Position numbers and translations under genes: made by a program
Source of the DNA: Neobacillus sp. PS3-34
GTDB lineage: Bacteria > Bacillota > Bacilli > Bacillales > Cytobacillaceae
Reading direction: 5' to 3'
Length of the DNA: 64,000 bases
Assembly (NCBI RefSeq): GCF_030915465.1
Contig: NZ_CP133267.1
Span: 992,001 to 1,056,000, forward strand
The notes under the pieces: generated by a model
Database searches by the model: none
What the model saw: the letters and a program-made list of their open reading frames with translations, nothing else
What the model was told of the DNA's origin: nothing
Part shown: in pieces, positions 4,780 to 58,774 of the stretch
Layout of the letters: every line of letters starts with the position of its first letter
Position numbering within the stretch: the stretch's first letter is position 1

Positions 4780-5678
4780 TTGCGTCGATCTTTAAAATGG
4801 TTTGCTGTCGCAACAACCATTGGAATGATTTTTATTTTAATAGGTGGGGCTCTTGTTACGAAAACCGGTTCCGGAATGGGATGCGGAAGATCATGGCCAC
4901 TTTGCAATGGTAAATTTGTTCCAACTCATATAACTCCTCAGCTTGTAATTGAGCTTGCTCACAGGCTTGTATCCGGAAGTGTAGGATTTATGGTTTTGAT
5001 CCTGTCCGTTTGGACATGGAAGGCAATTGGCAATATAAGAGAAACAAAATTTCTATCATTTCTATCCTTTTTCTTCCTCTTGCTGCAGGCGTTGATAGGA
5101 GCAGCAGCAGTAAAATGGGGACAATCAGGCTTTGTGCTGGCCTTGCACTTTGGCATATCGCTAGTTTCGTTTGCGTCAGTATTTTTACTAACCCTTCTCA
5201 TATTCGAGGTAGATAAAAAGTTTGATGCCGATAAACTCATCATAGACAGGCGTATGGGGAGGCATATCATAGGGGTATCCATATACAGCTATGCGGTCAT
5301 CTATACGGGTGCATTGGTTCGCCATACCAAATCGAGCCTTGTATGCCTCGATTGGCCTTATGTGTGAATAGTTCTCCCTCCCTCCCCTCCAATCTGTACG
5401 AGTGGGTTCAAATGGGACACAGAACTGCAGCTGGGTTTATTTTTATCTGGATTGCATATATTACGTATTTAGCTGTAAAAAAATATAAGCATCAAAAAAT
5501 CCTCTATTGGGGCTGGATTATTTCATTTTGCCTTGTATCGCTGCAAGTCATTGCCGGTGCGTTTATTATCATTAGCAGGCTGAATCTTTATGTCGCCTTG
5601 CTGCACGCCTTTTTTATCACCTGCTTGTTTGGTATGTTAAGTTACTTCCTGCTCCTTTATTCAAGAAACCGTGAATAA
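4780..5678 (+). pseudogene. ctaA: Heme A synthase, frameshifted at about 5356
   Basis: CtaA oxidises heme O to heme A in the membrane. The first part (to about 5356) has [20 protein letters not shown], and the second part resumes in another frame with YEWVQMGHRTAAG. Joining them needs one extra base at the GGCC at 5354-5357 (W-P-Y-V-stop becomes W-P-L-C-V-N). This restores about 299 residues, near the B. subtilis length. Start TTG at 4780 is chosen because GAAGG is 8 bp upstream; a GTG at 4771 overlaps that site. Frame loss looks like sequence error, since ctaB and the oxidase are intact and need heme A. Confidence 0.9.
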
Positions 5679-5690
5679 AATCAGATAAGC

Positions 5691-5722
5691 AAAAAGCTGC
5701 CGGAATTGCCGGCAGCTTTTTG
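5691..5722. terminator. Bidirectional intrinsic terminator between ctaA and ftsW
   Basis: AAAAAGCTGCCGG and CCGGCAGCTTTTT form a perfect 13-bp stem around a 5-base loop, with A-tract and T-tract on the two sides. It serves convergent ctaA and ftsW and is the only sequence where pycA usually lies. Confidence 0.9.
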
Positions 5723-5723
5723 T

Positions 5724-6928
5724 TTATGAACGAAATTGATAGACCTTTTGATTTTTAGGAATTGGTTTTTGGTTTGGCAGTGCATGCTGATTTTTATATT
5801 TTCTCTCGTAATTTACAAACATCGATACATTTACTAAAATACCCGTTGCAATTGCAAGCTGTACAAGGGAAGAACCGCCGTAACTGACAAAAGGAAGCGG
5901 AACTCCAGTCAAAGGGATTAACCCTGATACCCCTCCAAGATTAACAAACGACTGGATTCCAATCATGCCAGAAATTCCAATTGCAAGAAGGCTTCCAAAA
6001 GGATCTTTGCATTTCATTGAAATATAAATGCCCTTTAAAACAATATAGCCTAATATAATAACAACAAAACCTACTCCCCATATTCCCAGTTCTTCTGCTA
6101 TGACAGCCATAATGAAATCAGTATGTGGTTCAGGCAGATACCCTAATTTTTGTATGCTTTTTCCAAGGCCAATCCATTGACGCCGCCAGACCCTATAGCA
6201 TAAAGAGAATTTGCCATATGGTATCCAATCCCCTTTTCATCTGAAAAAGGATCGGCAAAGGCCTGAAAACGAGCCATTTTTGTTTTTGAAAATATTTCAT
6301 TTTTCATAACGAGTATAATTGGCAGTAATGCCAATAATCCAATTGTAACTAGTCGGATAATGTTTTTCAGACCCATTCCAGAGGAGAGGATAATCATGAC
6401 GGCAATCGCGAAAATGATGGCATCCGTGCCAAAATCGGGCTGGATCGCAACGGCTAAAATGACAAGAAAAAGATAAATCAGAGGAGGAACTACCCCTTTA
6501 TTGAAATGATTTATGTAGGCTTGTTTTTTAGCGTAAACAGCAGACATGTAGATAATGACAGAAAGCTTAACAAATTCCGACGGCTGAAGGCTGCTGCTTC
6601 CTACCTTAAACCAGCTCTGGGCGTTACCGGCAACATGTCCAAACACAAATAGAGCTCCAAGACCCCCTAATGAAAAAACAACCATAGGAAGAAGGATTTT
6701 GGTGCTTTTCATCGCTTTATAAGGAAAGAGTGCTGATATTACAAAAAACACTGCCGCAACGATAAGGTTTATCTTTTGTTTTTTGTAAAAGAAATCGCTG
6801 GGAAGATCATACCGCTGCATTGCTGTTACCATACTGGCGCTGTAAACCATAATAAGCCCAAAGATTGCCAGCAGTACGATCGCAATAATCAAAGAGTAGT
6901 CATAGGATTTTAATATTTTCTTTAGCAT
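5724..6928 (-). pseudogene. ftsW: Cell-division peptidoglycan polymerase FtsW (SEDS family), frameshifted at about 6168
   Basis: SEDS glycosyltransferase that makes septal peptidoglycan; multi-pass membrane protein. The upstream part (from 6928) has the FtsW start LLAIFGLIMVYSAS and SSSLQPSEFVKL; the downstream part has AVIAEELGIWG and LTGVPLPFVSYGGSS. Between them the frame changes at GGCC 6167-6170. Adding one G (GGGCC) gives GLGLGKSIQKLGYLPEPHTD, the canonical SEDS loop, and a 401-residue protein. FtsW is normally essential, so sequence error is likelier than decay. It sits between ctaA and ylaN as in B. subtilis, but with pycA missing. Confidence 0.93.
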
Positions 6929-7062
6929 CTTATCTCTTCCTTAATTTCAATAGGTTTTATGAATCCATTATAATAGAAAATACAAGCCAATACTTAAGGA
7001 AAAGACATTTTCTTTAAAATAGGAGAAATTAACTGCCCCTGCCCCTTTATTCCCCTGTGAAC

Positions 7063-7102
7063 AAAAAACTCAAACAATCAAGAACCATTGTTTGAGTTTT
7101 TT
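7063..7102 (-). terminator. Intrinsic terminator of ylaN
   Basis: AAAAAACTCAAACAAT pairs with ATTGTTTGAGTTTTTT around an 8-base loop, just past the ylaN stop codon. It separates ylaN from ftsW transcriptionally. Confidence 0.8.
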
Positions 7103-7106
7103 GTTT

Positions 7107-7391
7107 TTATTTTTTTAAGGACGCCTCATGAAGCGAAGACAGTTCTCTTTCCAGTTTGTCTAAAATCGCCTTGCCATCCTGTTCTTCAATTAAACCAAGC
7201 CGAACTGCAAAATCTATCTCTCTCGATAAACCAAACATTTGTGTATCAAGCACCTCTTCATAAAGAGGGCATTGAGGCATCGTAAGGTTATCCATTTGGA
7301 CTTTGATCAGCTTTAATATTTTATCAGCGTCAGCCTGCAGTAAGGCGTATGCTTTTTCCTGATGATTAACAATCATTTCAGACGCCAACAT
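7107..7391 (-). CDS. ylaN: YlaN family protein (iron-homeostasis protein linked to Fur)
   Basis: A 94-residue cytoplasmic protein, nearly identical to YlaN over [20 protein letters not shown] and [16 protein letters not shown]. YlaN proteins of B. subtilis and Staphylococcus are reported to bind iron and Fur and to matter under iron limitation; that is family knowledge. The reading frame extends upstream to 7421, but the start at 7391 (MLASEMIV) has GGGGGG 6-7 bp before it and gives the family length. It is the neighbour of ftsW, as in B. subtilis. Confidence 0.92.
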
Positions 7392-7570
7392 TGATCCCCC
7401 CGTTTCCGAGCGTTTACCCAACTTATCTATAAATTTTACAGTTAAGAGAGTGAAATTGCAAGAAGATTAATGGGATGAAATTAAAAACGAATGCTCAGTC
7501 AAGTTCGTATGACATTCTGTTGATTTGAGGCTATACTCGTAATAGTGTGTAAAAGAATGGGGGAAATAAA

Positions 7571-8068
7571 ATGGAAAGAATCATACAGATAAAAGGCAAT
7601 GTAAAGTATTCCATTACACTGGATCCCGGAGTATGGATTTTCGATGACAGACGAATCGATTTGACCACGTACTTTAAAAAACCTTCTGAGAAGCCAGACG
7701 CCCTAGAAGAATATACAAAAGCAATTTCAAGGCATTGGGACAGGGAAATCATTGAGGGGGCAACAGTGCCTCCGACTTTAAAATCCGAAAAGAGATATCA
7801 AAAAGAACTTGCCTTAACCGGAACTTTCGGCATTCCTTTCAAGCCGTTTCTTGCCAATGCAGAGCCCATGGAAAATGCCTCAAAGCTAATTATTGAAACA
7901 GCAGACGGAAAGGTTGATATTACGCTGGATCAAGCCTATGACCTAATCCTTGGTTTTTCTGAAAACGGTAAGCCTCATTTAACAGATGGACCTGTCCATG
8001 TATTTTTCGGAGATGGCTCCAATCAGGTAGAACCAATTAAACATGTAAAATCCTTTGTGATTGAATAG
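7571..8068 (+). CDS. ylaL: YlaL-like protein of unknown function
   Basis: 165 residues, soluble, no signal peptide or membrane segment. The central part (TLDPGVWIFDDRRIDLTTYF) looks like the Bacillus YlaL family, and the place between ylaN and ylaK is where ylaL lies in B. subtilis. Start ATG follows GGGGGAAATAAA. No catalytic motif was recognised. The name rests on synteny and remembered family similarity, so it is less certain than its neighbours. It is followed by a strong terminator and convergent with ylaK. Confidence 0.65.
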   Translation: MERIIQIKGNVKYSITLDPGVWIFDDRRIDLTTYFKKPSEKPDALEEYTKAISRHWDREIIEGATVPPTLKSEKRYQKELALTGTFGIPFKPFLANAEPMENASKLIIETADGKVDITLDQAYDLILGFSENGKPHLTDGPVHVFFGDGSNQVEPIKHVKSFVIE

Positions 8069-8076
8069 GGCTCCTA

Positions 8077-8108
8077 GAAGGGCGGTTAACCACCGCCCTT
8101 CCGTTTTT
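8077..8108. terminator. Intrinsic terminator between ylaL and ylaK
   Basis: GAAGGGCGG pairs with CCGCCCTTC around a 7-base loop, with CGTTTTT following on the plus strand. It is shared by two convergent genes. Confidence 0.8.
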
Positions 8109-9645: not shown

Positions 9646-10230
9646 ATGAGGAACTTCTTAACAGTGTTGCTGGCAGTCATGGTTCTTTCCAGCTGCAATA
9701 CAAACAATACGAGTGAGAAAAGTGCAGATCCAAAGATTGTGCAAGTTAAAAACAGCTATATACAAAATGTTGACAGGAAATCCGGACAGGAAATTTCCAG
9801 ACACTTAGTTGAGCTTGCCACCAGCATACCGAATGTACATGATGCAGCCGCAGTTGTTATAGGAAGGTATGCCATTGTTGGAATTGACGTAAATTCAAAT
9901 ATTGAGAGGTCTCAAGTTGGCTCGATAAAGTATTCTGTTGCCGAAAGTTTAAGGAAAGATCCACATGGCGCCAAAGCGGTAGTTGTAGCTGATCCAGATA
10001 TAACGGCCAGACTTAGGGAAATCTCTCAGGATGTCAAAAACGGAAGACCAGTGCAAGGAATTATTAATGAACTAGCGGATATTACTGGCAGATTGATGCC
10101 AGAGGTGCCTGGGGACATAATCAATCCGAGTCCAAAAAACGCAACAGAAGAACCTAAAAAGAAACTGCAAAATAAAGAGAAGAAGAATCTCGAGAGAAAA
10201 CAAGAGGAAGAGTCGAAATATCACAAATAA
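9646..10230 (+). CDS. ylaJ: YhcN/YlaJ family sporulation lipoprotein
   Basis: 194 residues. A signal peptide with lipobox VLSSC (residues about 12-16) precedes a YhcN/YlaJ domain (NVHDAAAVVIGRYAIVGIDV) and a charged Lys/Glu-rich tail. Members of the family are spore or forespore membrane lipoproteins. The start ATG at 9646 is preferred over an upstream TTG at 9631 because GCGGGGGG lies 6-7 bp before it. It is divergent from ylaK, as in B. subtilis. Confidence 0.87.
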   Translation: MRNFLTVLLAVMVLSSCNTNNTSEKSADPKIVQVKNSYIQNVDRKSGQEISRHLVELATSIPNVHDAAAVVIGRYAIVGIDVNSNIERSQVGSIKYSVAESLRKDPHGAKAVVVADPDITARLREISQDVKNGRPVQGIINELADITGRLMPEVPGDIINPSPKNATEEPKKKLQNKEKKNLERKQEEESKYHK

Positions 10231-10447: not shown

Positions 10448-10891
10448 CATTGCATCCATAACCTGTTTGTCCAGCCTGGCTGCCGCATCTTTATCATATG
10501 TCTTGTCATATTGAGGTTCGACAGTAATTTTTGATCCGTAGAACATTACGTCTCTGACCTCATTAATTTTAAGTTCAATCAACGCCAGTTTTAAAGGGAC
10601 ACCTGATAACTTTTCCTCTTTTACTGCTGCCTGTCCGCTGATGGAATATGTAGATTCGTTTGCTATTACGTTTAAAACAATTTTATTATTTTGGCTGATG
10701 TTCTGGACAATACGTGAGCGGTTGTCTACAGAAAAATAAATGGTACTCTCATCCTTGGCAATAACCCAGGAAATTGCGCTAACGTTTGGCCCTCCTGTTT
10801 CATGGTCAATTGTCGCAAGTGTAACGAATTTTTCTTTTTGCAATTCATTTAATAATGGTTCGATCAGCTTTGGTTCTACTTGGTTTGCCAT
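10436..10891 (-). CDS. Pyridoxamine 5'-phosphate oxidase family (FMN-binding split-barrel) protein
   Basis: 151 residues from the ATG at 10891. The split-barrel pattern is visible: KFVTLATIDHETGGPNVSAI, then TIYFSVDNRSRIVQNISQN and IVLNVIAN. Such proteins usually bind flavin and reduce small molecules; the substrate here is unknown. The frame is open up to 10966, but the preceding residues are not family-like and AAAGGG lies upstream of 10891. It is not part of the B. subtilis yla cluster, so it is a lineage-specific insertion between ylaJ and ylaI. Confidence 0.75.
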   Translation of the reverse strand: MANQVEPKLIEPLLNELQKEKFVTLATIDHETGGPNVSAISWVIAKDESTIYFSVDNRSRIVQNISQNNKIVLNVIANESTYSISGQAAVKEEKLSGVPLKLALIELKINEVRDVMFYGSKITVEPQYDKTYDKDAAARLDKQVMDAMKKA

Positions 10892-11067
10892 TATCCCAAC
10901 CCTTTCATCTTTAAGCATATCTGAAATAGCTATACCCATATTACTACTATCCCTAATTTTCATCAACTTAAACGGAATTCGCTAACCATCCAAAATGACG
11001 TGTGTTATACTATAATATAAATAAATCAGATAATTGTTGATATATAACAGAAATATGAGGTGTTTTA

Positions 11068-16827: not shown

Positions 16828-17790
16828 TCAATTTTGACCCCATTTTAAACGGATACTCTCCGCCTCTGAAATCATTCTTTGAAAAAGTTCAGAGACTGTA
16901 GGCGCGTCATGAATTAGTCCCATAACCTGTCCTGCCCACCCAAAGCCTTCTTCAAGATTCCCATCATAAATTAATTTTTTGTTCGCCTGTCCGCTAATTA
17001 ACGATTTCAGCTGCTCATATCCGCCCTTTCGCCCTTCGATTTCCAGAATTTTATTTGTCCAATGATTTGAAATCGCTCGGGCAGGTGCCCCCAGTGACCT
17101 TTTTATAACAGCAGTATCCGTTTCCGCCCCTTCAATAAGCAAACGCTTGTATGCCTCGCTCGCATGGGCGCATTCCTTTGTAGCAATAAACCTTGTACCC
17201 ATTTCAATACCGTCAGCACCAAGGCTGAGGGCTGCCATCAATCCTCTCCCATCACCGATGCCTCCAGAGGCAATTACTGGTATGGAAACAGAATCAATCA
17301 CACTCGGAATCAGCACTATTGTCCCAATATCTTCGCGCCCCAGATGCCCTCCTCCTTCTTGACCGACGACCATAACCGCATCAGCACCAAGCTGTTCCGC
17401 TTTTATAGCTTGTTTTCTTGCTGCTACTAGAACCAGCTTTTTAACATTCACTCCCTTTAATTGATCAAACAAAGGTGCGGGATTGCCGCCGGTCATCGTA
17501 ATTACCGGTACATTTTCCTCTATTGCAACATCGAGAAAATCCTCATACTGCCTTCCATGCTGTCCGATGGCAAAGTTTACCCCGAAAGGCTTATTTGTTG
17601 CCTGCTTTACCTTTTGAATCTCCTCTCTCAGCTTCTCTGACCCCTCAAGCGACATTGCTGTTATTTGCCCCAGGCCTCCTGCATTAGAAACGGCTGCAGC
17701 AAGCTCAGAATACGCGAGATGCGCTAATCCTCCCTGTATGATCGGATATTTAATATTTAAAAGTTCTGTCACTCTTGTTTTCCAATTCAT
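16828..17790 (-). CDS. Nitronate monooxygenase family (NPD/FabK-type) flavoprotein
   Basis: 320 residues forming an FMN TIM barrel: IKYPIIQGGLAHLAYSELAA at the start, GVNFAIG, the phosphate-binding VIASGGIGDGRGL (about 193-205) and LGADGIEMGTRFIAT. Such enzymes oxidise alkyl nitronates or act as enoyl-ACP reductase FabK; the two are hard to separate by eye. It is not present between speA and yktA in B. subtilis, so it is an insertion into otherwise conserved order. Frame intact. Confidence 0.82.
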   Translation of the reverse strand: MNWKTRVTELLNIKYPIIQGGLAHLAYSELAAAVSNAGGLGQITAMSLEGSEKLREEIQKVKQATNKPFGVNFAIGQHGRQYEDFLDVAIEENVPVITMTGGNPAPLFDQLKGVNVKKLVLVAARKQAIKAEQLGADAVMVVGQEGGGHLGREDIGTIVLIPSVIDSVSIPVIASGGIGDGRGLMAALSLGADGIEMGTRFIATKECAHASEAYKRLLIEGAETDTAVIKRSLGAPARAISNHWTNKILEIEGRKGGYEQLKSLISGQANKKLIYDGNLEEGFGWAGQVMGLIHDAPTVSELFQRMISEAESIRLKWGQN

Positions 17791-18005
17791 TTGGTCATCC
17801 TCCTAATCAATTGTTGTTCCACTTATTTCGTCTTTACAGGTTAAATTTCCTTTTAGGAAGAAAAACTAACGTGAAAGTAAAAATTAACATTTGCAAGGAA
17901 TGACAAATTTCTATGCAAGTAAAGGTAATAGTGCTATAATTCATTTGTTTTATGACTTTTTATATTAATGAATTGCAATTTGAGATAAAGAGGTGTGAAG
18001 ATAAA

Positions 18006-19479
18006 TTGTCACAAAATGAAACTCCGCTATTTAGCGGATTAGTAGAACACGCAAAAAGAGAACCTATCCAATTTCACATACCAGGCCATAAAAAAGGCGC
18101 GGGCATCGATCCTGAATTCAGGAATTTTATTGGCGATAATGCTCTTTCAATTGATTTAATCAATATAGGGCCCTTGATGACCTCCACCAGCCAAAGGGCA
18201 TGATTAAGAAAGCTCAGGATTTGGCAGCAGAAGCCTTTGGAGCAGACCACACTTTCTTTTCTGTCCAGGGGACAAGTGGGGCAATCATGACAATGGTTAT
18301 GGCTGTCTGTGGACCTGGGGATAAAATTATCGTCCCTCGTAACGTGCATAAGTCTGTTATGTCCGCCATTGTTTTTTCTGGCGCAGTCCCTGTATTCATT
18401 CACCCTGCGATTGATGAAGATTTAGGTATATCGCACGGAATTACAATCGAGTCTGTCGAACACGCGCTTGAACAGCATCCAGATGCAAAAGGGATACTAG
18501 TAATTAATCCGACTTACTTTGGCGTTTCTGCTGATTTGAAAAAGATTGTTGAAATTGCTCATTCCTATAATGTACCTGTCCTGGTGGATGAAGCACATGG
18601 TGTACATATCCATTTCCATGAAAGCCTTCCTCTTTCCGCCATGCAGGCAGGGGCCGATATGGCTGCGACAAGCGTTCATAAACTGGGGGGCTCGATGACT
18701 CAAAGTTCCATTTTAAACGTGAGAGAAGGAAGGGTATCCTCGAAAAGGGTGCAATCGATCCTGAGTATGCTTACCACTACCTCCACATCCTATTTGCTGC
18801 TTGCCTCCCTTGATGTTGCGAGGAGAAGGCTGGCAACGAAAGGACGCGAATTGATCGACAGTACCATTAATCTGGCCAAACCATCCGAAAGCGGATAAAT
18901 GAAATTGACCATTTATATTGTGTTGGAGAAGAAATAATCGGTTCTAAAGCAGCCTTTGATTACGATCCGACAAAATTGATTATTTCTGTCAAGGACCTCG
19001 GCTTAACAGGCTATGAAGTAGAAAAATGGCTTCGTGAAAAATACAATATCGAGGTTGAATTGTCCGATCTGTACAATATTCTTTGCATCATTTCCTTAGG
19101 AGACACTGACGTAGAAGGCGACCTTTTAGTTAAGGCTTTAGCTGATCTTGCCGACGAATGTGCACACCGGGCTGAGAAAGTTGAACCATTACAGGTTTTC
19201 CTTCCGGACATCCCTGTTCTGGCATTAACTCCACGAGATGCTTTCTATGCAGAAACAGAGGTTATCCCGTTTGATGAGAGCTCGGAAGGAAGGATTATTG
19301 CAGAATTCGTAATGGTTTATCCTCCAGGGATTCCAATTTTCATTCCAGGTGAAATCATCACAAAAGAAAATCTTAGCTTTATACAAAAAAATCTCGAAGC
19401 CGGTTTGCCTGTACAGGGACCTGAAGACGATGAATTAAAAACAATTCATGTAATTAAGGAATATAAAGCGATAAAATAG
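18006..19479 (+). pseudogene. speA: Arginine decarboxylase (PLP-dependent), frameshifted twice (about 18172 and 18876)
   Basis: SpeA converts arginine to agmatine for polyamine synthesis. Three consecutive frames carry the N-terminal FHIPGHKKGAG, the core SVQGTSGAIMTMVMAVCGPG with PLP lysine SVHKLGGSMTQSS, and the C-terminal LIISVKDLGLTGYEVEKWL. One base is missing at GGGCCC 18168-18173 (restoring NIGPLDDLH) and one at GGCC 18874-18877. Corrected length is 491, equal to B. subtilis SpeA (490). Start TTG at 18006 matches the family start; AAAGAGG is upstream. Probably an intact gene in the cell. Confidence 0.9.
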
Positions 19480-26198: not shown

Positions 26199-27316
<1,118 letters not shown>

Positions 27317-29361: not shown

Positions 29362-29915
29362 ATGTTAACGATGGAGGATATTATCCGCGATGGCCATCCT
29401 ACACTTAGGAAAATTGCAGCAGAAGTTCCAATGCCGCCATCGGAAAATGATAAACAAATACTTAGAGATTTACTTGAATATGTACAGAACAGCCAGAATG
29501 ATGAAGTGGCTGCACAATATGGGCTACGGCGTGAATTGGCGTGGCTGCCCCGCAAATAAATGTTTCCAAAAGAATGATCGCTGTCCATGTTCATGATGAA
29601 AAAGGTGTACTTTACAGCTACGCCCTTTTCAATCCACGAATTGCCAGCCACTCTGTTGAACGTTCCTATCTTGTCTCAGGTGAAGGCTGTCTTTCAGTGG
29701 ATGAGGCGATTGGCGGGTTTGTCCCCCGCTATGCAAGAGTTACGGTCAAGGGTAATGATCTCGATGGAAACGAAATCAAACTCCGGCTAAAAGGTCTTCC
29801 AGCAGTTGTTTTCCAGCATGAGATCGACCATTTAAACGGAATTATGTTTTATGATCATATCAATAAAGAAGATCCTTATAATCCTATTGAAAACGCTATT
29901 CCGATTGAAAGATAG
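29362..29915 (+). pseudogene. def: Peptide deformylase, frameshifted at about 29533
   Basis: Removes the N-formyl group from new proteins; metal enzyme. Frame 1 carries the N-terminal part to QYGLR; frame 2 carries [10 protein letters not shown], the cysteine motif [11 protein letters not shown] and the metal-binding [10 protein letters not shown]. One added G near 29533 gives LRRGIGVAAPQ and 184 residues, the length of Bacillus DefB. Here the break is not at GGCC. It is the long type-2 form with the insertion after motif 1. Position next to ykyA and ykrA is conserved. Confidence 0.92.
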
Positions 29916-29953: not shown

Positions 29954-30720
29954 TATTAATTGCAACTTCCTTAACCCGTTTCGGATGCCATCCTCTGCCA
30001 CATCACTTGTAATTAAATCAGCGTGTTTTTTTGCTTCTTCCGCACCATTCCCCATCGCTACACCTGTTCCGACAGCCTTCAGCATCTCAATATCATTCAG
30101 GCCATCTCCAAAAGCATAAACATCCTTCATTTCAAATCCCAGACGTTCGATCATTCTTTTAATACCTTCAGCTTTTGAGCCTCCCGCGGGAAGGATATCG
30201 ACTGAATAAGGATGCCACCTAATAAAATGGAATAAAGAGTAATTATCCATGTACTCTATCTCTGAGCGTTCCTCACAAAAAAGGAGCGATTGATAGATTT
30301 TTCTTCCCTCATAGAAGTGCTCATCTACTTCTGGATGGGTAAACTTCAAGCTTCCCATGCTTTCTTCAATATAATGGTGTTGTCTTACATTCGATTTCAT
30401 CGTTTGCTCATTCATAAAAACGATGGGGTGATTATTTCCATTGGCAATCTCTATAAGTTTAACGAGTTCCTCCTGATTAAGCGGGTTCTCGTAAATGACT
30501 TCATTTTCAAATACCACATACTGCCCATTAAAGCTAACGAAGGAGTCAATATCCAACTCTTCCCGTAAGCTTTCAAACATAAAGGGTGCACGGCCTTAGC
30601 AATTGCTACAAAAACCCCATTTTGCTTTAGTTCGCTAATCGCATCCTTGGTGCTCGAAGGCAGATTTTTTTCGTGATCGAGCAAAGTACCATCAATATCA
30701 AAAAATACAATTTTCTTCAT
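29951..30720 (-). pseudogene. ykrA: Cof-type HAD-superfamily phosphatase, frameshifted at about 30593
   Basis: HAD hydrolase with cap domain. Motif I FFDIDGTLLDHEKNLP is in the upstream frame; the rest (FVSFNGQYVV, and motif IV VYAFGDGLNDIEMLK with GVAMGNGAEEAK) is in another frame. Adding one G at GGCC 30592-30595 gives VAIAKGRAPFMFESL and 256 residues (B. subtilis YkrA is about 257). Probably acts on sugar or flavin phosphates; substrate unknown. It follows the EamA gene with 27 bp spacing. Confidence 0.88.
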
Positions 30721-30747: not shown

Positions 30748-31649
30748 TTATGCTGCTGCCTTTTTCTTAGGCTTCGAGGTCATTTTAAGAGAAGAAATAT
30801 AAACACCAGCAAAAATGGCAATTAGACCAATGATCATTGTTAAATGAATGGATTCATTCAAAAGCAATGCTCCCCATAAAATAGCCGAAACTGGGACAAG
30901 ATATGTAACTAGTGAAGCAAACTCCGGGCTTCCCTTTTGTACGAGAAAATAATATAGGAGATAGGCGATTCCTGAACCTAGGCGCCCACGCCCATAAACG
31001 GCCCGATAAGAGAAAGATGCACGAACGCAGAAACGGACTCTGGCGCTTGCACAAGCATTATGATCAGCCCAATTACAGTCGATAATCCCATTGTAAAAAA
31101 GGATATTTCAAGAACAGTTAAATCAGATAAATATTTTTTTGTCAGATGCCCCCCCAATCCATAACAGAAGGTTGCGCCCGACATTAATAAGATTCCTGAC
31201 ACATGGTCGGTTAATAAATCACCAGGTTTTATTTCGGAAAGAATAAAAATCCCTAAAAAACCAACGATAATTCCGATCCATTGATTTTTTCTTAATGCAG
31301 ATGAAAAAATAAGGAAGCCTATTACTAGTGTCCATATAGGCGTGGCAGCATTTATGATAGAAGCAAGGCTTGATGATATTTTCGTCTCACTTGAGCTGAT
31401 TAACAGCCATGGGATGGCGTTATTCATCAGCGCCACAAAGAACAATTTAACCCAGGGCCTGTTTTTTAAATCAAATTTTTCTTTCCTGAATAAAAAAATC
31501 ACCAACAGAATCAAAAATCCAAACAGGCAGCGTCCAAAAACAACCGCAGTGGGATCAAGAGACTCCAATAATATTTTAATAAACAGAAAAGAAGTTCCCC
31601 AAATCAAACTGAGAACAATCAAAGCACTATATAACCTGCCCATCTTCAA
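30748..31649 (-). pseudogene. EamA/DMT-family transporter, frameshifted at about 30981
   Basis: Ten-helix drug/metabolite transporter. The first 223 residues (LIWGTSFLFIKILLE, then GIIVGFLGIFILS) stop after IGPFMGVGA. The next frame continues LGSGIAYLLYYFLVQKGSPE, LWGALLLNESIHL, IAIFAGVYISS and a basic end KPKKKAAA with a stop at 30748. One added base near 30981 restores 300 residues. Substrate unknown. It is absent from this place in B. subtilis and lies between ykrA and the small peptide gene. Confidence 0.85.
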
Positions 31650-34115: not shown

Positions 34116-35128
34116 TTACTTTTGGCCCTTCACATAATCTGCATCAAATAAAAACAAGCGCATAATTAACACCAATGAAGGTATTAACAATAGAAGCCCC
34201 GCTATAAATACAGCAATAAGGGTAATACCCATCGTTTCATTTGTATAGGATGAATAAACATTAATATACGGTTCCAAAATATACGGAAGATGTGAAGCTC
34301 CGTATCCAAAAAAAGCGAAAAAGAATTGGAGCATCACAAAAATGAATGCCCAGCCCAGGTATTTTCTCTTCAAGATGAATAAAATGGCGGCCAAAAAGAA
34401 CAATAGCGATAACCCGAACATCCACCAGATTTCAAGTGCATTTTCAAAATGCCTTAAATTATGTACACGCAATGACAGGAAAACAAGAAAACTTGCCAGG
34501 ATCGTAGGGATACTCCAAAAAAGCGCGAATTTCCTTAACAATTGCATTGCTTCGAAATCCTTCGCCGGTCCGCATAGAAGGTTAAAAAGGCTGCGCTGAT
34601 AAATAAAACCGATACAATCGCAAGTAAAACAACAGACCATGAATAAGGACTGCTGAAAAGCTTCCCCGTAAGCAGTTCAACCGATTCTCCCTTCTTCTGC
34701 AAGAAACCTCCCTCGGAGATGGTGAGAGCTGTAGAAAGCGCTGCCGGGATGAGCAAACCCGTTGCTCCGTAAAGAAATAAATAAAATCGGTTTTCTTTTG
34801 GACCATAGTTTCCGAACGCATAGAATGATCCACGAATGGCAAGCAAAATCAAGGCAATACTGCCAGGCAGGAGAAGTGCTGTCCCGTAATAAAAAGCCGT
34901 GTCTGGGAAAAATCCAACCAGCCCGACAAAAAAGAAGACGAAGAAAACATTCGTTACTTCCCAAACCGGTGATAAATAGCGACTGATTATATGGTTTATG
35001 ACATGATCTTTTTTAGTCAATTTTCCATAGTATGCGAAAAAGCCTGCACCAAAATCAACTGATGCTACAATTAAATATCCAAATAAAAAAGTCCATAGAA
35101 CGGATATACCGAGGATTTCCAGGCTCAT
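34116..35128 (-). pseudogene. Cytochrome bd-type quinol oxidase subunit II, frameshifted at about 34566
   Basis: Membrane subunit II of a bd-type oxidase, closer to the YthB type (MSLEILGISVLWTFLFGYLI, SVDFGAGFFAYY). The first part ends AFLTFYADRRRIS; the other frame continues AKDFEAMQLLRKFALFWSIP. One extra G in CCGGC (34564-34568) gives YADRAKDFEAM and 337 residues. The start at 35128, third of three ATGs, has AGGGGG 7 bp upstream. It follows subunit I by 25 bp as one operon. Confidence 0.86.
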
Positions 35129-35153: not shown

Positions 35154-36484
35154 TTAAGAAGCACTTGAATAACGATCTGCATACTCGGCTTCTGCAGATT
35201 TGTTCCTGAACATTTTGATTAAGACCATAACAGAAATGGTTCCAAGGACAATATATAAAAGCAGGAACATCAAGAACGTCAGCCCTACATTATCTGCCTT
35301 CGTTGCTCCTTCTGCAACCTTCATATATCCTCTCAAAATCCATGGCTGCCTTCCCACTTCGGCTAGAATCCAGCCTAGCTCGATTGCAAGCATTGATAAG
35401 GGCCTGTGGCACATATCAGCCATAGTACCAATCTAATATACTCATTCTTTTTCAACCTTCTTAAAAGGAGAAAAAGTGCAGAAACCCCTATCCCATACAT
35501 ACCTATACTCACCATTAAATCAAACATATAGTGAATCCACAGCGGAGGCTGTTCATCCTTAGGAATTTTGTCCAATCCGATTACTTCTGTTTTAAAGGAA
35601 TCACCAGCTAGAAAGCTCAGCATTTTTGGTATTTTTATTGCATTTCTTACCTGATTCTCTTTATTCAGTGTTCCAAATACGATTAAATCAGCATCTCTTT
35701 CTGTTTTAAAATGCCATTCAGCTGCTGCCAGCTTTTCAGGCTGTTTTTCTGCAAGGAATTTTGCTGAGATGTCTCCTGCCAAAGCCGTTCCTAACGAAAG
35801 AATCAGACCCATCACAACCGTTAGCTTTAAGGATTTTCGGTAATATTGATTGTTCTTCCCTCTTAGAATAGCGAAAGCAGCAATAGAAGCTAATAAAAAT
35901 GCCGATGCCATATATGAAGAAGATAACACGTGAAAAACCTTTGATGGGACAGCAGGATTAAATATTGCTTTAAATGGCTGTATATCCACTATTGCCCCAT
36001 TCTTAAGCTTAAAGCCCTGAGGTGTATTCATAAAAGCGTTTACACATGTTATAAAGACAGCTGATGCAGACGAACCAATTACAACAGGGATGGAAATTAT
36101 CCAATGATATAGCGGCCTTTCAAACCTGTCCCAAGTATAAAGATAGATACCCAGAAATATTGCTTCAAAGAAAAAAGCAAATGTCTCCATAAATAACGGC
36201 AAACTTATTACCTGGCCAGCAATACGCATAAAGCTTGGCCAGAGCATGGAAAGCTGTAAGCCTATGCATGTCCCCGTAACAACTCCAACCGCGACCGTAA
36301 TTGTAAAGCCCCTTGCCCAGCGGCGAGCAAGTAATATGTAATAGGAGTCATTTTTCTTAATGCCAATAAATTCGGCAACCGAAATCATGATAGGCACACC
36401 AACTCCAATGGTGGCAAAGATAATGTGAAAGGCAAGGGTCATCGTGGTCAGCATTCGGCTAAGGCTAACGCTGTCTAATTCCAT
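35154..36484 (-). pseudogene. Cytochrome bd-type quinol oxidase subunit I, frameshifted at about 35402
   Basis: Subunit I, bearing hemes b558, b595 and d. N-terminal MELDSVSLSRMLTTMTLAFH (heme ligand His) and GTCIGLQLSMLWPSF precede the quinol loop. The C-terminal WILAEVGRQPWILRGYMKV is in another frame. Adding one base at GGGCC 35400-35404 gives ATGPLSMLAIELGWILAEVG and 443 residues. This is the short-Q-loop type, like YthA/CydA of Bacillus. A high-affinity O2 oxidase for low-oxygen growth. A palindromic operator lies 50 bp upstream. Confidence 0.88.
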
Positions 36485-42190: not shown

Positions 42191-43714
42191 TCATTGAAGC
42201 GGAGATTGGTCCTTCTTGGGCAGGAAAAGGATAAATAGTAAGCTGATAGCTGCAAATAACAGGACAGAAACATAAACAGAATGGAGCGATGCCGTTAGTC
42301 CTTCTTGCAATAAATTTCTAACAGATTCAGTAAGTTTGTTTCGCTGACTTTCATTTAAAAGAATATTGGCCGAATCAACATTCAGCTTCTTGCCTTCTCC
42401 AGATGCATGTCCGCCTATATAAGCTCTTAACTGGCTGTTTAAAATACCTCCCAGCAAGGCAGCGCCAACAGTGTTTCCGAGGTTGCGCATGAACATATTT
42501 GCCGCAGTCGCAATACCCCTTTGCTGCCAGCCGACTGTGCTTTGGATTGAAACAATAAATGCCGTGGAGGTTAACCCCATTCCAATCCCTACAAGGAAAG
42601 AACCTGTTGCGGCCAAAAAGGACCTGAGTCCCCAGACATAGCAACAAAAACGATGCTTCCCATTATTAAGGATACTCCCCCAATAATGGATGTGGCCCTA
42701 AAACCAAACTTCAAAAGCATACGGCAGGAGAGTGTGGACGCAATCGGCCAGCCAATGGACATGGCTGTCAAGGTAAAACCTGCAATAAGAGGCGGCTGCT
42801 CCATTACCCCCTGGACAAAGGCAGGCAGGAAGCTGGAGATTCCTATCAGCATAATTCCAGTCGTCAATGAAGTTATGTTTGCTATGAAAATGGAGCGCTC
42901 TTTCCATATATTAAAAGGCATTATGGGTTCAGAAGCCCGCCTTTCCCGAAGTATAAAGAAGAATAATGCTGCCGCACTTGCTCCCAACAAGCCCATTGAC
43001 TGTCCTGACGCCCAGCCCCAGCGGCTTCCGCCTTCCACAAGGGCAAACATCAATGTTGAAATAGCCATAGTCAAAAGCAATGCTCCTCCATAGTCAATTT
43101 CATGTCGTTTTCTTTCAACCTTTTCATGCAAAAAGAAATGCAAGCCAATAATGGACAGAATGCCAAGAGGAATGTTAACCCAGAAGACAAAATTCCAGCT
43201 CACATACTGTACCAGAAACCCTCCAATTGCCTGCCAGGACTGCTGAAATCCCCCAGACACTTGAAAGGTAGCCCTGAATCTTTGCCCGTTCCTCTTTCGT
43301 ATATATATCTCCTACAATGGTTGTAGCAATAGGCATGACAGCGCCTGCTCCAAACCCCTGAATTAGCCGGAAGACAATCAGCATTTTCATGGAATTAGCA
43401 AAACCGCACAGGATGGAACCGGTTAGAAATATGATAATTCCAAAAAATAAAATCGGCTTACGTCCAAATAGATCTGAAAGCTTTCCATAAATCAGGACAG
43501 TAACTGCATTCATCAGCAAGTATGCAGAGAAAACCCAGCTGTAAAGAGTAAAGCCTCCCAAATCACCGACAATTGCAGGCATTGCAGTAGAAACAATGGT
43601 TGCTTCCACCGCTCCCATAAACATAGCAAGCATCACTGACACCAATACAAGCGGCAGGTTGGTTTGTTTCTGAGCACCGCTTTTTTGCTGTTCTTTTTCT
43701 AACGGGACCCCCAT
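42191..43714 (-). pseudogene. DHA2-family (EmrB/QacA type) MFS exporter, frameshifted twice (about 43235 and 42612)
   Basis: Fourteen-helix drug:H+ antiporter. Motifs: VEATIVSTAMPAIVGDLGG (motif D1) in the first frame and YGKLSDLFGRKPILFFGI (motif A). The second frame carries QAIGGFLVQYVSWNFVFWVN; the third carries GIGMGLTSTAFIVSIQSTVG. The first break needs +2 (or -1), compatible with GGGCC reduced to GGC; the second needs +1 at GGCC 42611-42614. Corrected length 508. Substrate unknown. Not present here in B. subtilis; flanked by MITE copy 3. Confidence 0.85.
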
Positions 43715-47800: not shown

Positions 47801-49013
47801 TTACAATAGACCATCCTGTTCGAATAAGTATTCATGTGATATATCGATAAATAAAAATTCTTTTGGATTTATCGGAAAAGAAAATGTTCGGATCGGTTCC
47901 CCTGTTTCAATATCACTATAGAGATCCGATAAGATACCCTTTTTTTCATTCCTCATTTTTATGATATTTTCCAGGAAGTACGGTCGCCAGCTCCAATTTT
48001 TATGAATATATTCCATCTGCGTAATCCAACCATTCGCCTGGCTTTTTGAAAAATTAGGCGAAAGCTGGAATCCATCCTCATCACAAACATACATCCTAAA
48101 AGCAATAAGATCCATTTCCCGCATTAAGGAAAGGAATAATTCCTCATATCCTGGTTTCTTAATTTTAATAACAATTGACTGAACTTGAATATGAAACGAT
48201 TCCGCAGCCGAATAGATGGCCTGAAGCTTTTTCTTTTCAGAAAAAATAAAGCCATGAAATTCCTTCTTCAACTTTTCCTTAAAAAATTCAGACCCAATAA
48301 ATTCAGAAGATGGCTGACTTAAATAAAAGCCCTGATAATATCTGCCGCCGTTTTTCCAGGCAAAATATAGCTGGTAATCCATTTCAATGTTTTCAAATAA
48401 TAGCTCTGCCCCAATTTTTCTCGCCAGTAAAGATAAAGTAAACATCATATCCTGAAAGGCTGTTCCAGTTGCTGTCGATCTTAAAGCACCTAAATTAACC
48501 TTTAGAATATCAGGCTCGAGCAAGCCAAGGAGATCCATTGTGTTATTGTCAAAATCCTTCTTTGCCACCGCAATTTTGATACCATAGGTACGATAATAAT
48601 TAAGCAAGTGGACTAGCTGGTGATTCTCACCAGTAAATTTCGCATCCGAAATTTCCAGCACTAGCCTATCTAAGGGAAGTCCATCTTTTTCAAACGCCAA
48701 TAACTGCTCTAAAAACGGCTCTCCATCCTGGTACATTAATAGCTCTGCAGTCCGGTTAATAAATAATTTTTCAGTTGCTTCCAAACGGGATGCCATTTCT
48801 ACAGCTTTTATCAAAAGTAGCTGATCAACTTCGAATTTATATTCATCAGGGATTTCTGCGTCTTCAAAAAAGGCCAAGACTTTGTACATTACCATCCTTT
48901 ATAAAGCGTCCCAACACTTCATAACCGATAACCCTTTGTTCGTCCGCACTAACAATCGGCTGAAAATATGGCATTATGCAATCTAAGTTCGTAAGGATGT
49001 CTAAAGCATCCAT
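47801..49013 (-). pseudogene. ykuI: EAL-domain protein YkuI, frameshifted at about 48873
   Basis: A c-di-GMP-binding degenerate EAL domain plus a C-terminal PAS-like YkuI domain. The main frame covers about 360 residues (FEDAEIPDEYKFEVDQLL to YLFEQDGLL). The true N-terminus lies in another frame from ATG 49013: MDALDILTNLDCIMPYFQP, then VIGYEVLGRFI (EVL instead of EAL). The junction is at GGCC 48872-48875 plus a T-run and needs +2 (or -1). Corrected length about 404 against 407 in B. subtilis. GGAGG precedes 49013. Confidence 0.9.
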
Positions 49014-50019: not shown

Positions 50020-50781
50020 AGAAAGGATGGGGACTTAGCCATTGACCGCCGTCCATAGTGATACATTCTCCATTAATATATACAGCGGCATCTGAGCTTA
50101 GAAAAAAGGCGAGTTCTGCAATTTCCTCGGGTTTACCAAGCCTGCCTAAAGGAACACTTTCCAACGTTCTTCTAGCTGCTTCCTCCGATTCCCAAAGCTT
50201 ATCAGCACCCCCTGTTCTTTCAATTGGGCCAGGAGCGATTGCATTTACACGGATTCCATACTTTTTCCCCATTCAACTGCAAGGGTTCTTGTCATAGACA
50301 GCACACCTGCTTTCGCAGCTGCCGAATGAATGACACCTGCTCCTGCATTCCAGGCATATGTAGCAACCATATTAATAATACTTCCTTTAATCCCTTTTTC
50401 AATCCAATACTTTCCTACCTCACTGCTGCAATAAAAGGTTCCATTCAACACAATATTAATAACTGAATTCCATCCATTTGGACTTAGTTTTTCTGCCGGA
50501 CATATAAAATTCCCTGCTGCGTTATTTACGAGGATATCAACGGTCCCAAAATGTTCGGTTGTCTCCTTAACCATTCGTTTTACATCTTCAATTTCCCTGA
50601 CATCCATTTGAATGGCAAGTACCTGTCCTGATTCCATTGCAATCTCGTTTTTTGCTTCTTCAAGCCTCTCTATGGATCTTCCAGTTATTACTACTTTTGC
50701 ACCAGCCCGAGCGAACTTTTTAGCCATATACTTCCCCATGCCGTTTGAGCCACCAGTAATAATTGCCACTTTTCCCTGCAT
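50018..50781 (-). pseudogene. fadH: 2,4-dienoyl-CoA reductase (SDR), frameshifted at about 50269
   Basis: NADPH-dependent reductase for beta-oxidation of unsaturated fatty acids. Rossmann motif ITGGSNGMGKYMAKKFA and VDILVNNAAGNF are in the first frame; RVNAIAPGPIERTGG is in the second. One base added in the GGGGAAAAA run at 50266-50272 gives VEWGKKYGIRVNAI and 254 residues, the length of B. subtilis FadH (YkuF). The active site reads HSAAAKAG instead of YxxxK, as in peroxisomal dienoyl-CoA reductases. A FadR box lies upstream. Confidence 0.9.
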
Positions 50782-52990: not shown

Positions 52991-54153
52991 ATGTCAAAAG
53001 TGGAGCACTTAATAAATCATAAAGTAAAGGAAATTGAAATTTCCGGAATCAGAAAATTTTTCAATATGGTAGCAGGTACCGAGGGAATGATTTCATTAAC
53101 GATCGGACAGCCTGACTTTCCTACCCCACTTCATGTTAAGGAAGCAGCAATAAGAGCTATCGAGGAAGATTTCACCTTATATACCCACAACGCCGGTATA
53201 CTGGAATTGCGACAGGCAGCAGCAGCATTTTCAAAACAAAAATATGGATTGGAGTACAATCCAGAAACTGAAATCATTGTAACGACTGGCGCAAGTGAAG
53301 CGATAGACATCTCGTTTCGGACTATTTTAACCGAGGGCACAGAAGTAATTTTGCCCGGACCTGTTTACCCTGGATACGAACCAATCATCCGTCTCTGTGG
53401 AGCAGAACCTGTACATGCAGACATCCGCAGCAACCAATTCCGCTTCACTGCAGACGTTATAAAAAAATACTTAACTGAAAAAACAAGATGCATTGTGTTG
53501 CCTTATCCTTCGAACCCGACAGGTGTCAGCCTGACAGAAAATGAATTGAAGGAAATTGCTGATCTTTTGAAGGACCGTGACATCTTTATACTTGCTGACG
53601 AAATCTATAGTGAGCTTGTGTACGGACAGGGACATAAATCGATTGCTTCTTTTTTACCAGAAAAAACGATTGTCATTAATGGATTGTCAAAATCTCACTC
53701 CATGACAGGATGGAGAATCGGGTTTGTATATGCTCCAGAAAAGATATCAAATCAAATATTAAAGGTTCACCAGTATAATGTAAGCTGTGCAAATTCCATT
53801 GCCCAAAAAGCAGCGTATGAAGCTCTTACGGCGGAATCAACGATGCACTGCCAATGAGAGATGAGTATGAAAAAAGAAGGAATTATGTTTATAACCGCTT
53901 GTCAGAAATGGGATTCGATGTTGTCAAGCCTGATGGGGCATTTTATTTCTTTGTTAAAATACCTTCCTCCATCCCTTTTAATTCTTTTGATTTTGCACTT
54001 GACCTTGTAAAAGAGGCAAAGGTGGCTGTTGTTCCAGGGAGTGCTTTTTCAACCTACGGAGAAGGCTATTTCCGCCTGTCCTTTGCATGCTCAATGGAAA
54101 CCTTAGCAGAAGGACTTAACCGGCTAAATCAGTATCTACAAAAGTGGAATTAA
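52991..54153 (+). pseudogene. patA: Aminotransferase A (class I/II), frameshifted at about 53831
   Basis: PLP-dependent aminotransferase, in B. subtilis acting on N-acetyl-diaminopimelate precursors. The first frame has LTIGQPDFPTPLHVKEAAI, YPSNPTGVSLTENEL and the PLP lysine in NGLSKSHSMTGWRIGF. The second frame has MRDEYEKRRNYVYNRLSEMG and FRLSFACSMETLAEGL. One base added at ACGGCGG near 53830 gives an INDALPMRDEY junction and 387 residues. It would act in the same pathway as dapH and dapL of this window. Divergent from cheV. Confidence 0.9.
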
Positions 54154-54205: not shown

Positions 54206-54208
54206 TAT

Positions 54209-54385: not shown

Positions 54386-54450
54386 CATCTTTCCTCCCAT
54401 TTTAAAGTACATCCATAGTATCCAATCTGGGAGAAAAGTTTATTCATCAC

Positions 54451-54819: not shown

Positions 54820-54922
54820 TGAACCCTCCCTCTCTAAATTTTTATTAAATCGAGAGGTATTTTAGAATGAAGAACAAACAAAAGGAGACCTCTTCGCTGG
54901 ATGGCCTCCACTTACCTTAACT

Positions 54923-55807: not shown

Positions 55808-55883
55808 TCATCCTCTCAAAAATTTTATCTGTTTATATTTTAACATTATTTTTATTCTCGAAATAATGATGGCGGATTTTTCG

Positions 55884-55912
55884 CAAAAAAAATCCGGGAC
55901 CTGTGTCCCGGA
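55884..55912 (-). terminator. Terminator of the SDR gene at 56010
   Basis: On the minus strand TCCGGGAC, loop ACAG, GTCCCGGA is followed by eight T. Confidence 0.78.
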
Positions 55913-56009
55913 ACATGTGCTAATCTCCAAATTTATGCACCCTAGTATTTTATCCTGATTTTATCTTTTTAATCAAATTAATAAGTGAAAGAAAAAGGAT
56001 TATTAAGCA

Positions 56010-56795
56010 TTAAATCGATTTTACCATTCCACCATCAACAAGGAATGAGCTGCCTGTCATATAGGAGTTTGCATCTGAAACAAGAAAGGAGGCAACCTTG
56101 GCAAATTCTTCAGGGTTTCCGTATCTTTTTAATGGAATCATTTCCTTAACCTGGTTTTCGACAGCTTCCCTTTCTACACCAAGCTTTTCAGCATTTATCT
56201 GATCAAGATGCTTCACCCTGTCCGTAGCAATCCTTCCTGGTGCGATCGTATTTATTAAAATCTGATATTCCGCAAATTCCTGTGCCAGTGTCTTTGTCAA
56301 TCCCACGATTCCAGTCCTGAAGGTATTCGAAAGTATTAATCCTGGAATAGGTTCTTTAATTGATGAGGATGCAATATTTAATATTTTTCCTCCATCACGC
56401 TTCAAAAAGGGAAGTGCTTCTCTGATAAGACGGACATACGATAATAAATTCAACTCAAAAGAAGCAAGCCAATCTTCGTCCCTCATCGACTCAAAGGATC
56501 CCGCAGGCGGACCGCCAGCGTTATTGACAAGGATATCGATGCTACCGAAAAAATCAGCCGTTTTTGAAACCAGCTTTTTTATATCCTCTATCTTTGTAAT
56601 ATCCGCAGCGTGAAAGGACACTTTTCCAGTTCCCGCATTCTCCAGTTCTTTTGCCTTTTGTTCAAGCTTTACGGCATCACGTCCAGAAATCATGACATTT
56701 GCCCCTTCTTTAAGCAGCTGTTCTGCGATTGCAAAGCCCAATCCCTGGCTCGACGCAGCTATTAGGGCAGTTTTTCCTGTAAGATTCAAGTCCAT
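56010..56795 (-). CDS. Short-chain dehydrogenase/reductase lacking the YxxxK catalytic motif
   Basis: 261 residues. Rossmann motif ALIAASSQGLGFAIAEQLL, NNAGGPPAGSFE and C-terminal YMTGSSFLVDGGMV are SDR-typical. At the active site, after NIASSSIKEPIPG, the sequence is LILSNTFRTGIVGLT, so Tyr and Lys of YxxxK are replaced by Ser/Asn and Arg. This marks a known divergent SDR subset whose substrates are unclear. GGAGGATGATAAA precedes the ATG. Monocistronic. Confidence 0.82.
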   Translation of the reverse strand: MDLNLTGKTALIAASSQGLGFAIAEQLLKEGANVMISGRDAVKLEQKAKELENAGTGKVSFHAADITKIEDIKKLVSKTADFFGSIDILVNNAGGPPAGSFESMRDEDWLASFELNLLSYVRLIREALPFLKRDGGKILNIASSSIKEPIPGLILSNTFRTGIVGLTKTLAQEFAEYQILINTIAPGRIATDRVKHLDQINAEKLGVEREAVENQVKEMIPLKRYGNPEEFAKVASFLVSDANSYMTGSSFLVDGGMVKSI

Positions 56796-56921
56796 TTTAT
56801 CATCCTCCTATTAATAATCTATTTCTATTATACAAAAGACTGTTTCACAAAGCAGTTTAAGAGATTAATGAATCCTTTTCAATCCCCCTTTGGTTTAGGA
56901 TAATTCATTAAAAGAACGCAA

Positions 56922-56949
56922 AAAAATGCCGGCTGTTTTCACAGCCGGC
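56922..56949 (-). terminator. Terminator after ptsI
   Basis: On the minus strand GCCGGCTGT, loop GAAA, ACAGCCGGC is followed by ATTTTTTT. Confidence 0.88.
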
Positions 56950-57059
56950 TAATTAGGGGGAAAATGAGAATGATTAGCTTACACTTAGGCTTATCAAAGT
57001 GCATGCTTTATCTTTACCCGAAATAACAGTATTGAAACAAAATGATAATTACATTTTGA

Positions 57060-58774
57060 TTACAGTTTTGTAGCGGTTTTAACAGCCGCGATTACCTGAT
57101 CGGTTGTACTCATAGTTAGTACATTCAGGGCTAGCTGTTTCATTTCTTCCATGCTAAGCTTACGGATTTGAGAGCGTGCTTTTAAAATAGATGTAGCGCT
57201 CATTGAAAATTCATCAAGTCCCAAACCTAAAAGCAGCGGAATAGCAGTTTCATCCCCGGCCATTTCCCCGCACATTCCAGCCCACTTTCCTTCTGCATGT
57301 GCAGCATCAATAACCATTTTCACCAATCGTAAAATGGATGGACTGTATGGCTGGTATAAATAAGAAACGCGCTCATTCATCCGGTCAGCAGCCATTGTAT
57401 ATTGGATAAGATCGTTAGTACCGATACTGAAAAAGTCAACTTCCTTAGCAAATTGATCTGCAAGGATGGCAGTTGATGGAATTTCAACCATAATGCCAAG
57501 TTCGATTTTTTCTGAGACAGTATTTCCTTCAGAAATAAGCTTGTCCTTTTCTTCTTCCAAGATCGCTTTAGCTGCGCGGAATTCATCCAAGGTAGCAATC
57601 ATCGGGAACATAATTTTCAAATTGCCGAAACTGCTTGCTCTTAACAATGCACGCAATTGAGTTCTGAAGATTTCTTGCTCTTCAAGGCATAAACGGATAG
57701 CCCTAAAACCTAGGAAAGGATTCAGTTCTTTTGGAAGCTTCAAATATGGAAGTTCTTTATCTCCACCGATATCAAGAGTACGGACAACGACAGGCTTTCC
57801 TTTCATACCTTCAAGAACCGCTTTGTAGGCTTCGAATTGCTCTTCCTCTGTAGGAAGCTGATCACGGCCCATATAAAGGAATTCAGTCCTGTAAAGGCCA
57901 CTCCCTCACCGCCATTTTCTACTACACCTTTTAGGTCTTTAGGTGTGCCAATGTTGGCAGCAAGTTCAACATGATGTCCGTCAGCAGATACCGATTTTTC
58001 GTTTACAAGCTTTGCCCATTCTGCTTTTTGAGCTTCATATCCTTTGTGGATACGTCGGTATTCTTCTACGGCTTCAGGTGTTGGATTAATATGTACTTCT
58101 CCTGTTAATCCATCAACGACGACTAGATCACCGTTATTGATTTCTTCAGTAGCTGTTTTGGTTCCTACAACTGCTGGTATTTCCATTGAACGGGCCATAA
58201 TCGCTGAATGAGAAGTACGGCCACCGATATCTGTTGTAAAACCCTTTACAAACTGCCTGTTAAGTTGTGCAGTATCTGATGGTGTTAAATCTTCAGCTAC
58301 GATGATAACTTCTTCAGCTATCATGCTAGGATTGACGATTTGGACACCAAGCAAGTGTGAAAGAACGCGTTTTGTAACATCTCTTATGTCAGCGGCACGT
58401 TCCTTCATATAATCATTGTCCATTTGTTCGAACATCATAATAAACATGTCTGCTGTTTCCTTAAGGGCATGCTCCGCGTTGACGTTCTCAGATTTAATCT
58501 TATCTTCAATTGGTGAAATTAATTCAGGGTCGCTAAGTACTAGAAGATGTGCTTCAAAAATCGCTGCCTTGTCAGCTCCAAGGTCTACTTTCGCCCGGTC
58601 ACGAATGGATGAAAGTTCAGATTTTGATTGTTCAAGCGCCGTATGAAAACGCGCAATCTCTTGTTCAGCGTTTTCTACTGTCTTCTTTTCAAATGACAAA
58701 TCGGGCTCTACAAGCCTGTATGCTTTAGCAATCGCAATTCCATTGGAAGCGGCAATACCTTTTAGGAATGTCAT
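57060..58774 (-). pseudogene. ptsI: PTS enzyme I, frameshifted at about 57897
   Basis: PEP-protein phosphotransferase that phosphorylates HPr. The upstream frame has the active-site histidine motif [18 protein letters not shown] and runs to [10 protein letters not shown]. The downstream frame has [47 protein letters not shown] and [10 protein letters not shown]. One G at GGCC 57896-57899 gives [20 protein letters not shown] and 571 residues (family about 570). Its ATG overlaps the ptsH stop. Needed for all PTS sugars, so error is likelier than decay. Confidence 0.95.

Follow-up and report, generated by a model that had tools for sequence, protein, structure and literature searches.

Frame breaks at GGCC sites in a Neobacillus assembly: probable base-calling losses at sites methylated by a HaeIII/BsuRI-like system

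Results

The stretch examined here is a 64-kb window (C1:992001-1056000) of the genome of Neobacillus sp. PS3-34, a single contig of 4,899,526 bases (NZ_CP133267.1, called C1 below) in which protein-coding genes are repeatedly interrupted by shifts of the reading frame. A sequence-only reading of the window had counted 18 frameshifts, ten of them on the tetranucleotide GGCC, and had seen in these ten a likely case of base-calling loss at GGCC sites carrying HaeIII/BsuRI-type methylation. We find the same enrichment well beyond the window, together with a HaeIII-like methyltransferase gene beside a restriction-like gene elsewhere on the contig, and we consider it highly probable that the breaks are reading errors at GGCC methylated by this system.

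The search for frame breaks was made independently of that earlier list. For this, a frameshift-tolerant aligner compared the DNA with the proteins of G003, a relative from the same genus that shares 85% DNA identity over the pdh genes; over these genes, 12 named genomes reach at most 79%. Among the 120 RNase J1 relatives listed, which are spread across Bacillaceae genera, no identity exceeds 93%. A break was accepted only when each of its flanks reached a score of 45. Breaks are placed in intervals (median 8 bases) within which the shift could lie with nearly the same fit, and a break is called on GGCC when a GGCC lies inside its interval or at most one base from it. The gene names at the breaks were taken over from the sequence-only reading. 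The search yielded 20 breaks in the window, 17 of them solid, so that the earlier number of 18 was close without being identical, and ten were on GGCC. The coordinates that had been given for these ten GGCC, which are those in the list below, were all exact, and the four examples of intact GGGCC or GGCCC were all present within 10 bases of their given places; the density of GGCC had been put slightly too low, at one per 600-650 bp, against 108 in the window or one per 593 bp by computation. When the ten GGCC breaks were compared with two other relatives, the shift recurred at nine with G001 and at eight with G013. Three of the ten breaks lying away from GGCC are weak (17788-17824, 44520 and 62376), one flank scoring only 52 to 71. 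The solid breaks, in window coordinates, are as follows.

5354-5360, + strand: ctaA break, on GGCC at 5354; interval 5356-5360, -1; seen against G001 and G003
6165-6175, - strand: ftsW break, on GGCC at 6167; same shift against G001, G003 and G013
18168-18178, + strand: first speA break, on GGCC at 18169; same shift against three relatives
18872-18885, + strand: second speA break, on GGCC at 18874; same shift against three relatives
26532-26536, - strand: pdhA break, on GGCC at 26533; same shift against three relatives
29530-29537, + strand: break without GGCC, CGCC/GGCG type; the G003 counterpart has GGCC
30592-30597, - strand: ykrA break, on GGCC at 30592; same shift against three relatives
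30979-30989, - strand: break without GGCC, CGCC/GGCG type; from the frameshift-tolerant alignment
34560-34573, - strand: break without GGCC, CGCC/GGCG type; seen against G003 only
35394-35407, - strand: bd oxidase subunit I break, on GGCC at 35401; seen against G003 only
42605-42614, - strand: MFS gene break, on GGCC at 42611; a shift against three relatives
43225-43240, - strand: break without GGCC; the G003 counterpart has GGCC
48863-48875, - strand: ykuI break, on GGCC at 48872; adjoins an A run, cause ambiguous; read as +1 in one alignment run and -2 in another; three relatives agree on a shift
50261-50271, - strand: break at a T/C homopolymer, without GGCC; seen against G001 and G003
53831-53835, + strand: break without GGCC, CGCC/GGCG type; same shift against three relatives
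57894-57901, - strand: ptsI break, on GGCC at 57896; same shift against three relatives
63585-63595, - strand: break at a C homopolymer, without GGCC; same shift against three relatives

The search was extended to a main region of 464 kb around the window (C1:712001-1176000; 381 genes, 344,397 coding bases) and to two further regions, C1:2.40-2.50 Mb and C1:3.90-4.00 Mb, neither of which had been used in forming the GGCC idea. Clusters removed before counting were 32 with a weak flank and one net-zero in the main region, five weak in the 2.4 Mb region, and 16 weak and one net-zero in the 3.9 Mb region. The main region contains 145 breaks, of which 78 are on GGCC. Chance had been expected to put almost none there, and random placement in coding DNA indeed gave a mean of 4.48 and a maximum of 13 in 2000 trials. 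GGCC ranked first among the 4-mers at these breaks (78 against 5.0 expected) and, with k-mers of every length from 3 to 6 considered, had the lowest P. Without the window, from which the idea came, 68 of 125 breaks are on GGCC, and an aligner version lacking two-base steps gave 77 of 144. GGCC was again the top 4-mer in both further regions, with 20 of 42 breaks at 2.4 Mb (1.47 expected) and 16 of 34 at 3.9 Mb (1.01 expected). Pooled over the three regions (664 kb, 562 genes), 114 of 221 breaks are on GGCC, against about seven by chance. The enrichment supposed to be genome-wide is thus found in all three regions sampled, which lie apart and together make up 664 kb of the 4.9 Mb. One-base losses dominate, as 111 of the 145 breaks of the main region read as -1.

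We then considered the fate of individual sites. A break was found at 79 of the 737 coding GGCC sites of the main region (10.7%), at 20 of 187 in the 2.4 Mb region and at 16 of 154 in the 3.9 Mb region (pooled, 115 of 1078). The 15 other palindromes of four bases had a break at 0.2-2% of their coding sites in the main region: 17/865 for CCGG, 10/527 for GCGC, 4/406 for CGCG, and 0.2-0.7% for the remaining twelve. Loss at GGCC is therefore partial, as had been proposed, most coding sites being intact, and it is also specific to this motif. The further suggestion that bases are lost mainly in three-letter runs beside GGCC holds in part. GGGCC and GGCCC are scarcer here (188 per 876 GGCC) than in three relatives (298 per 984, 36 per 104 and 27 per 104). 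However, the CCGG control is likewise somewhat lower here (334 per 1058, against 413 per 1109 in a relative), so that only part of the scarcity is loss, and sites lacking a third G or C are also broken (58 of 591 coding sites, against 21 of 146 that have one; main region).

The 67 breaks of the main region that are not on GGCC were compared with the DNA of G003. The relative has GGCC at 15 of these 67 places, where intact places of like composition predict 2.5 (P about 7e-8), whereas none of the 15 other palindromes reached P<0.05 in its DNA at these breaks in any class. As GGCC is conserved at 26-33% of comparable sites, these 15 places imply, as a rough estimate, that some 63-82% of the 67 breaks probably also lie at genuine GGCC sites corrupted in the reading. 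The link with GGCC is thus probably stronger than first supposed, most of the breaks away from it looking like damaged GGCC. CGCC/GGCG stands at 31 of the 67 breaks, against 4.1 expected. Here the relative has CGCC at only one of the 31 places, whereas it has CGCC at about 21% of intact CGCC places; it has GGCC at eight of the 31 (1.46 expected). Compared in this way, the CGCC/GGCG-type breaks look like corrupted GGCC, and a second methylated motif behind their excess was rejected as first choice.

A GGCC-specific cytosine methyltransferase gene had been predicted from the error pattern before any gene search was made, and a HaeIII-like candidate was found, with a restriction-enzyme-like neighbour.

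C1:4777086-4778804, - strand: putative restriction gene, 573 aa
C1:4778855-4780186, + strand: C5-cytosine methyltransferase gene, 444 aa

The methyltransferase is the only PF00145 gene that a profile search found in the genome. Its match covers positions 1-319 of 324 without a stop (E=7.6e-68), that is, a full-length C5-cytosine domain, and it also exceeds the TIGR00675 cut-off. Among solved structures the best match is M.HaeIII (1dct; E=4e-61), the alignment running through the recognition region, while the match to M.HhaI reaches only residue 284 and ends before that region. The recognition signature consists of SRN, a T-I pair whose T lies 13 residues after the S, and GRQ, whose G lies five residues after the T. 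Characterised GGCC enzymes are reported (PMC2413257) to have exclusively SRN before and preferably GRQ after a TL pair. A slightly looser pattern of this signature is present in 47 of the 50 related loci that share at least 53% identity and in none of the 28 that share less than 35%. From these residues the enzyme is predicted to be specific for GGCC, and the GGCC sites of the strain are very probably methylated by it; the breaks themselves would indicate that it is active in the cell.

A search for other methyltransferases, confined to two further families, found no PF01555 gene and two PF02384 matches, one a gene of 328 aa and the other Type IIG-like; neither PF02384 gene has a break motif pointing to it. 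The Type IIG-like restriction-methyltransferase gene (C1:691761-692147, L171) encodes 802 aa from the first start and matches the PADLOC model REase_MTase_IIG. At the breaks, no further motif attributable to this enzyme was conspicuous.

The putative restriction gene and the methyltransferase gene stand head to head, 50 bp apart. The former matches REase_II (PDLC03444) over 572 of 576 positions (E=5e-240), and no Pfam or NCBIfam family match was found for it. In 17 of 78 related loci the methyltransferase has a relative of this gene as its neighbour, head to head in 16 of the 17, three of the 17 having identical scores. The gene is rare among the relatives searched (1 of 40), and neither it nor the methyltransferase occurs in three same-genus genomes. 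Among the 120 matches listed of its 192 homologues, nearly all are named 'hypothetical' or 'uncharacterized' and none bears the name BsuRI; its length is presumably like that of BsuRI.

Beyond the methyltransferase gene lies a Druantia type IV-like cassette, and further defence-like genes are found nearby, so that the place of the GGCC system looks like a defence island.

C1:4781199-4790641 (L091): Druantia type IV-like cassette, with a DruK-like nuclease gene (368 aa), DruE4 (1866 aa, 1719 bits) and a 900-aa gene that matches DruF4 at its start and DruL4 at its end, as if the two had been joined
C1:4769685-4771634 and 4791942-4794923: a NERD+UvrD helicase gene and a QatA-like gene

The same pipeline was applied to 100 kb of each of six control genomes and gave 4 breaks in 471 genes, none of the four on GGCC. 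By genome, the breaks and the genes aligned were 2/79 in G013, 1/85 in G001, 0/56 in G041 (H. sporothermodurans), 1/93 in G045 (Bacillus sp. FJAT-27245), 0/96 in G022 and 0/62 in G028, after removal of 5, 4, 3, 7, 5 and 3 weak clusters, respectively; the breaks of G013 and G001 were judged for GGCC from the printed sequence context. G041 and G045 carry relatives of both the methyltransferase and the restriction gene and therefore probably methylate GGCC, of which G045 has 424 in its 100 kb. In the stretches examined, the genes of these two genomes are intact but for one break, which lies away from GGCC. This favours an error of reading over the idea that methylated GGCC is especially prone to mutation in the cell.

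Also observed were families of short repeats, about 70-250 bp long and present in many copies in G003 and G001, the two same-genus genomes that were searched (L179:4395-4527 and 9983-10230; L174:4115-4230 and 10760-10930).

Discussion

We propose that the frame breaks of this assembly are base-calling losses at GGCC methylated by the strain's own HaeIII/BsuRI-like Type II system, and thus sequencing errors and not mutations. The enrichment in three regions and the gene pair support what the sequence-only reading had suggested, including the idea that an error pattern may reveal a methyltransferase of the strain. We infer that the platform was signal-based, of the nanopore kind, and by analogy with known cases methylation would be the cause of the miscall at GGCC. 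In this scenario, the methyltransferase would mark a cytosine of GGCC against the partner nuclease, and a sequencer reading native DNA by its signal would see a shifted current at the mark. A base-caller untrained on the mark would then drop or confuse bases at or beside GGCC, most often one, and the loss, if present in most reads, would be inherited by the consensus.

Several observations weigh against this proposal. A visible break is found at about 11% of GGCC sites, so the mark would leave many of them unbroken. Bases are also lost in plain homopolymers, and 8 of the 145 breaks of the main region are in this run class. The errors in Listeria, a precedent case, are mismatches and not indels (PMC10687267). 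Lastly, none of the six control genomes is error-rich: they serve as a check on spurious calls by the pipeline and on how mutable the sites are in the cell, not on bias of the platform, and no genome among them is both error-rich and devoid of the enzyme.

One alternative concerns only the partner of the methyltransferase and would leave the error mechanism unchanged. The enzyme could belong to the neighbouring Druantia-like cassette instead of being paired with the restriction enzyme; its best PADLOC model is DruM2 (408 bits), and the DruE4, DruF4/DruL4 and DruK-like genes adjoin it. We hold this to be unlikely. DruE or DruF matches occur in none of the 78 related loci, against 17 for the restriction gene, but the flanks searched extend to 6 kb at most and are too short to include DruF at the distance found here. 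Slightly less probable still is that GGCC is intrinsically hard for the platform or the assembler, because short runs of G and C adjoin in it, that methylation plays no part and that the methyltransferase is there by coincidence. The homopolymer losses and the make-up of the control set speak for such fragility. However, CCGG and GCGC, which have the same composition, are broken at 1.9-2.0% of coding sites, part of this being perhaps due to overlap with GGCC, against 10.7% for GGCC. Moreover, about 70% of nanopore consensus errors in a Klebsiella pneumoniae genome lay in Dcm motifs under default models (Wick et al. 2019, PMC6591954, a benchmark whose relevant part does not report GGCC apart), and the gene for the predicted GGCC enzyme was subsequently found here. 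Finally, that the breaks are real mutations, with methylated GGCC as a frameshift hot spot or a genome in decay, is very improbable: the breaks do track a methylation motif and affect many genes (145 breaks in 381 genes), but core housekeeping genes, by the names taken over, are among those broken, and the two control genomes with related gene pairs have no break at GGCC.

If methylation is indeed the source of the losses, most breaks here, namely 78 of 145 and the implied 63-82% of the other 67, would trace to one four-base mark. From the assembly alone, the pattern also points to the likely specificity of a restriction-modification pair and to its likely activity, and one restriction digest would be enough to test the methylation of the strain. 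Should the sampled rate (221 in 664 kb) hold, the whole chromosome would contain about 1,600 false frame breaks, and the pseudogene calls and gene counts of this genome are therefore untrustworthy. The genome also has a contamination score of 3.95%, which may, as a guess, partly reflect genes split by false frameshifts and not foreign DNA. Whether the case extends to other genomes seems to us evenly balanced: unpolished finished assemblies might keep a readable methylome, frame breaks alone revealing the site of a methyltransferase and its activity in the cell without any reads. If so, the same test across databases could assign specificities to many uncharacterised methyltransferases.

This kind of artefact is already known, and so are GGCC systems. 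No title on nanopore losses at GGCC was found in the part of the open-licence PMC literature covered. What is slightly unusual is that motif, activity and enzyme are joined here from an assembly alone, the prediction having preceded the gene search. In the classical BsuRI system both genes lie on one strand, whereas here the restriction and methyltransferase genes start head to head, 50 bp apart. The pair resembles the HaeIII, BsuRI and BspRI systems (PMC4081073, PMC7559349) in having a C5 methyltransferase with GGCC-type residues beside a Type II restriction-like gene. As in the K. pneumoniae Dcm case (PMC6591954), a 5-methylcytosine at a short motif on which the base-caller was not trained would gather most of the consensus errors; unlike that case, which concerned CCWGG and for which raw data existed, the motif here is GGCC, the genome is of the Bacillaceae type and the pattern was read from a finished assembly alone. 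A later multi-species study reports 6.5% methylation-linked errors (PMC12392509). Another parallel is with Listeria strains whose errors marked GCAGC or GCTGG (Modpolish, PMC10687267): there as here, a lineage-specific modification system would explain an unusually bad assembly and the motif was read from the errors, those of Listeria being mismatches at GCAGC/GCTGG and those of the present genome mostly one-base losses at GGCC.

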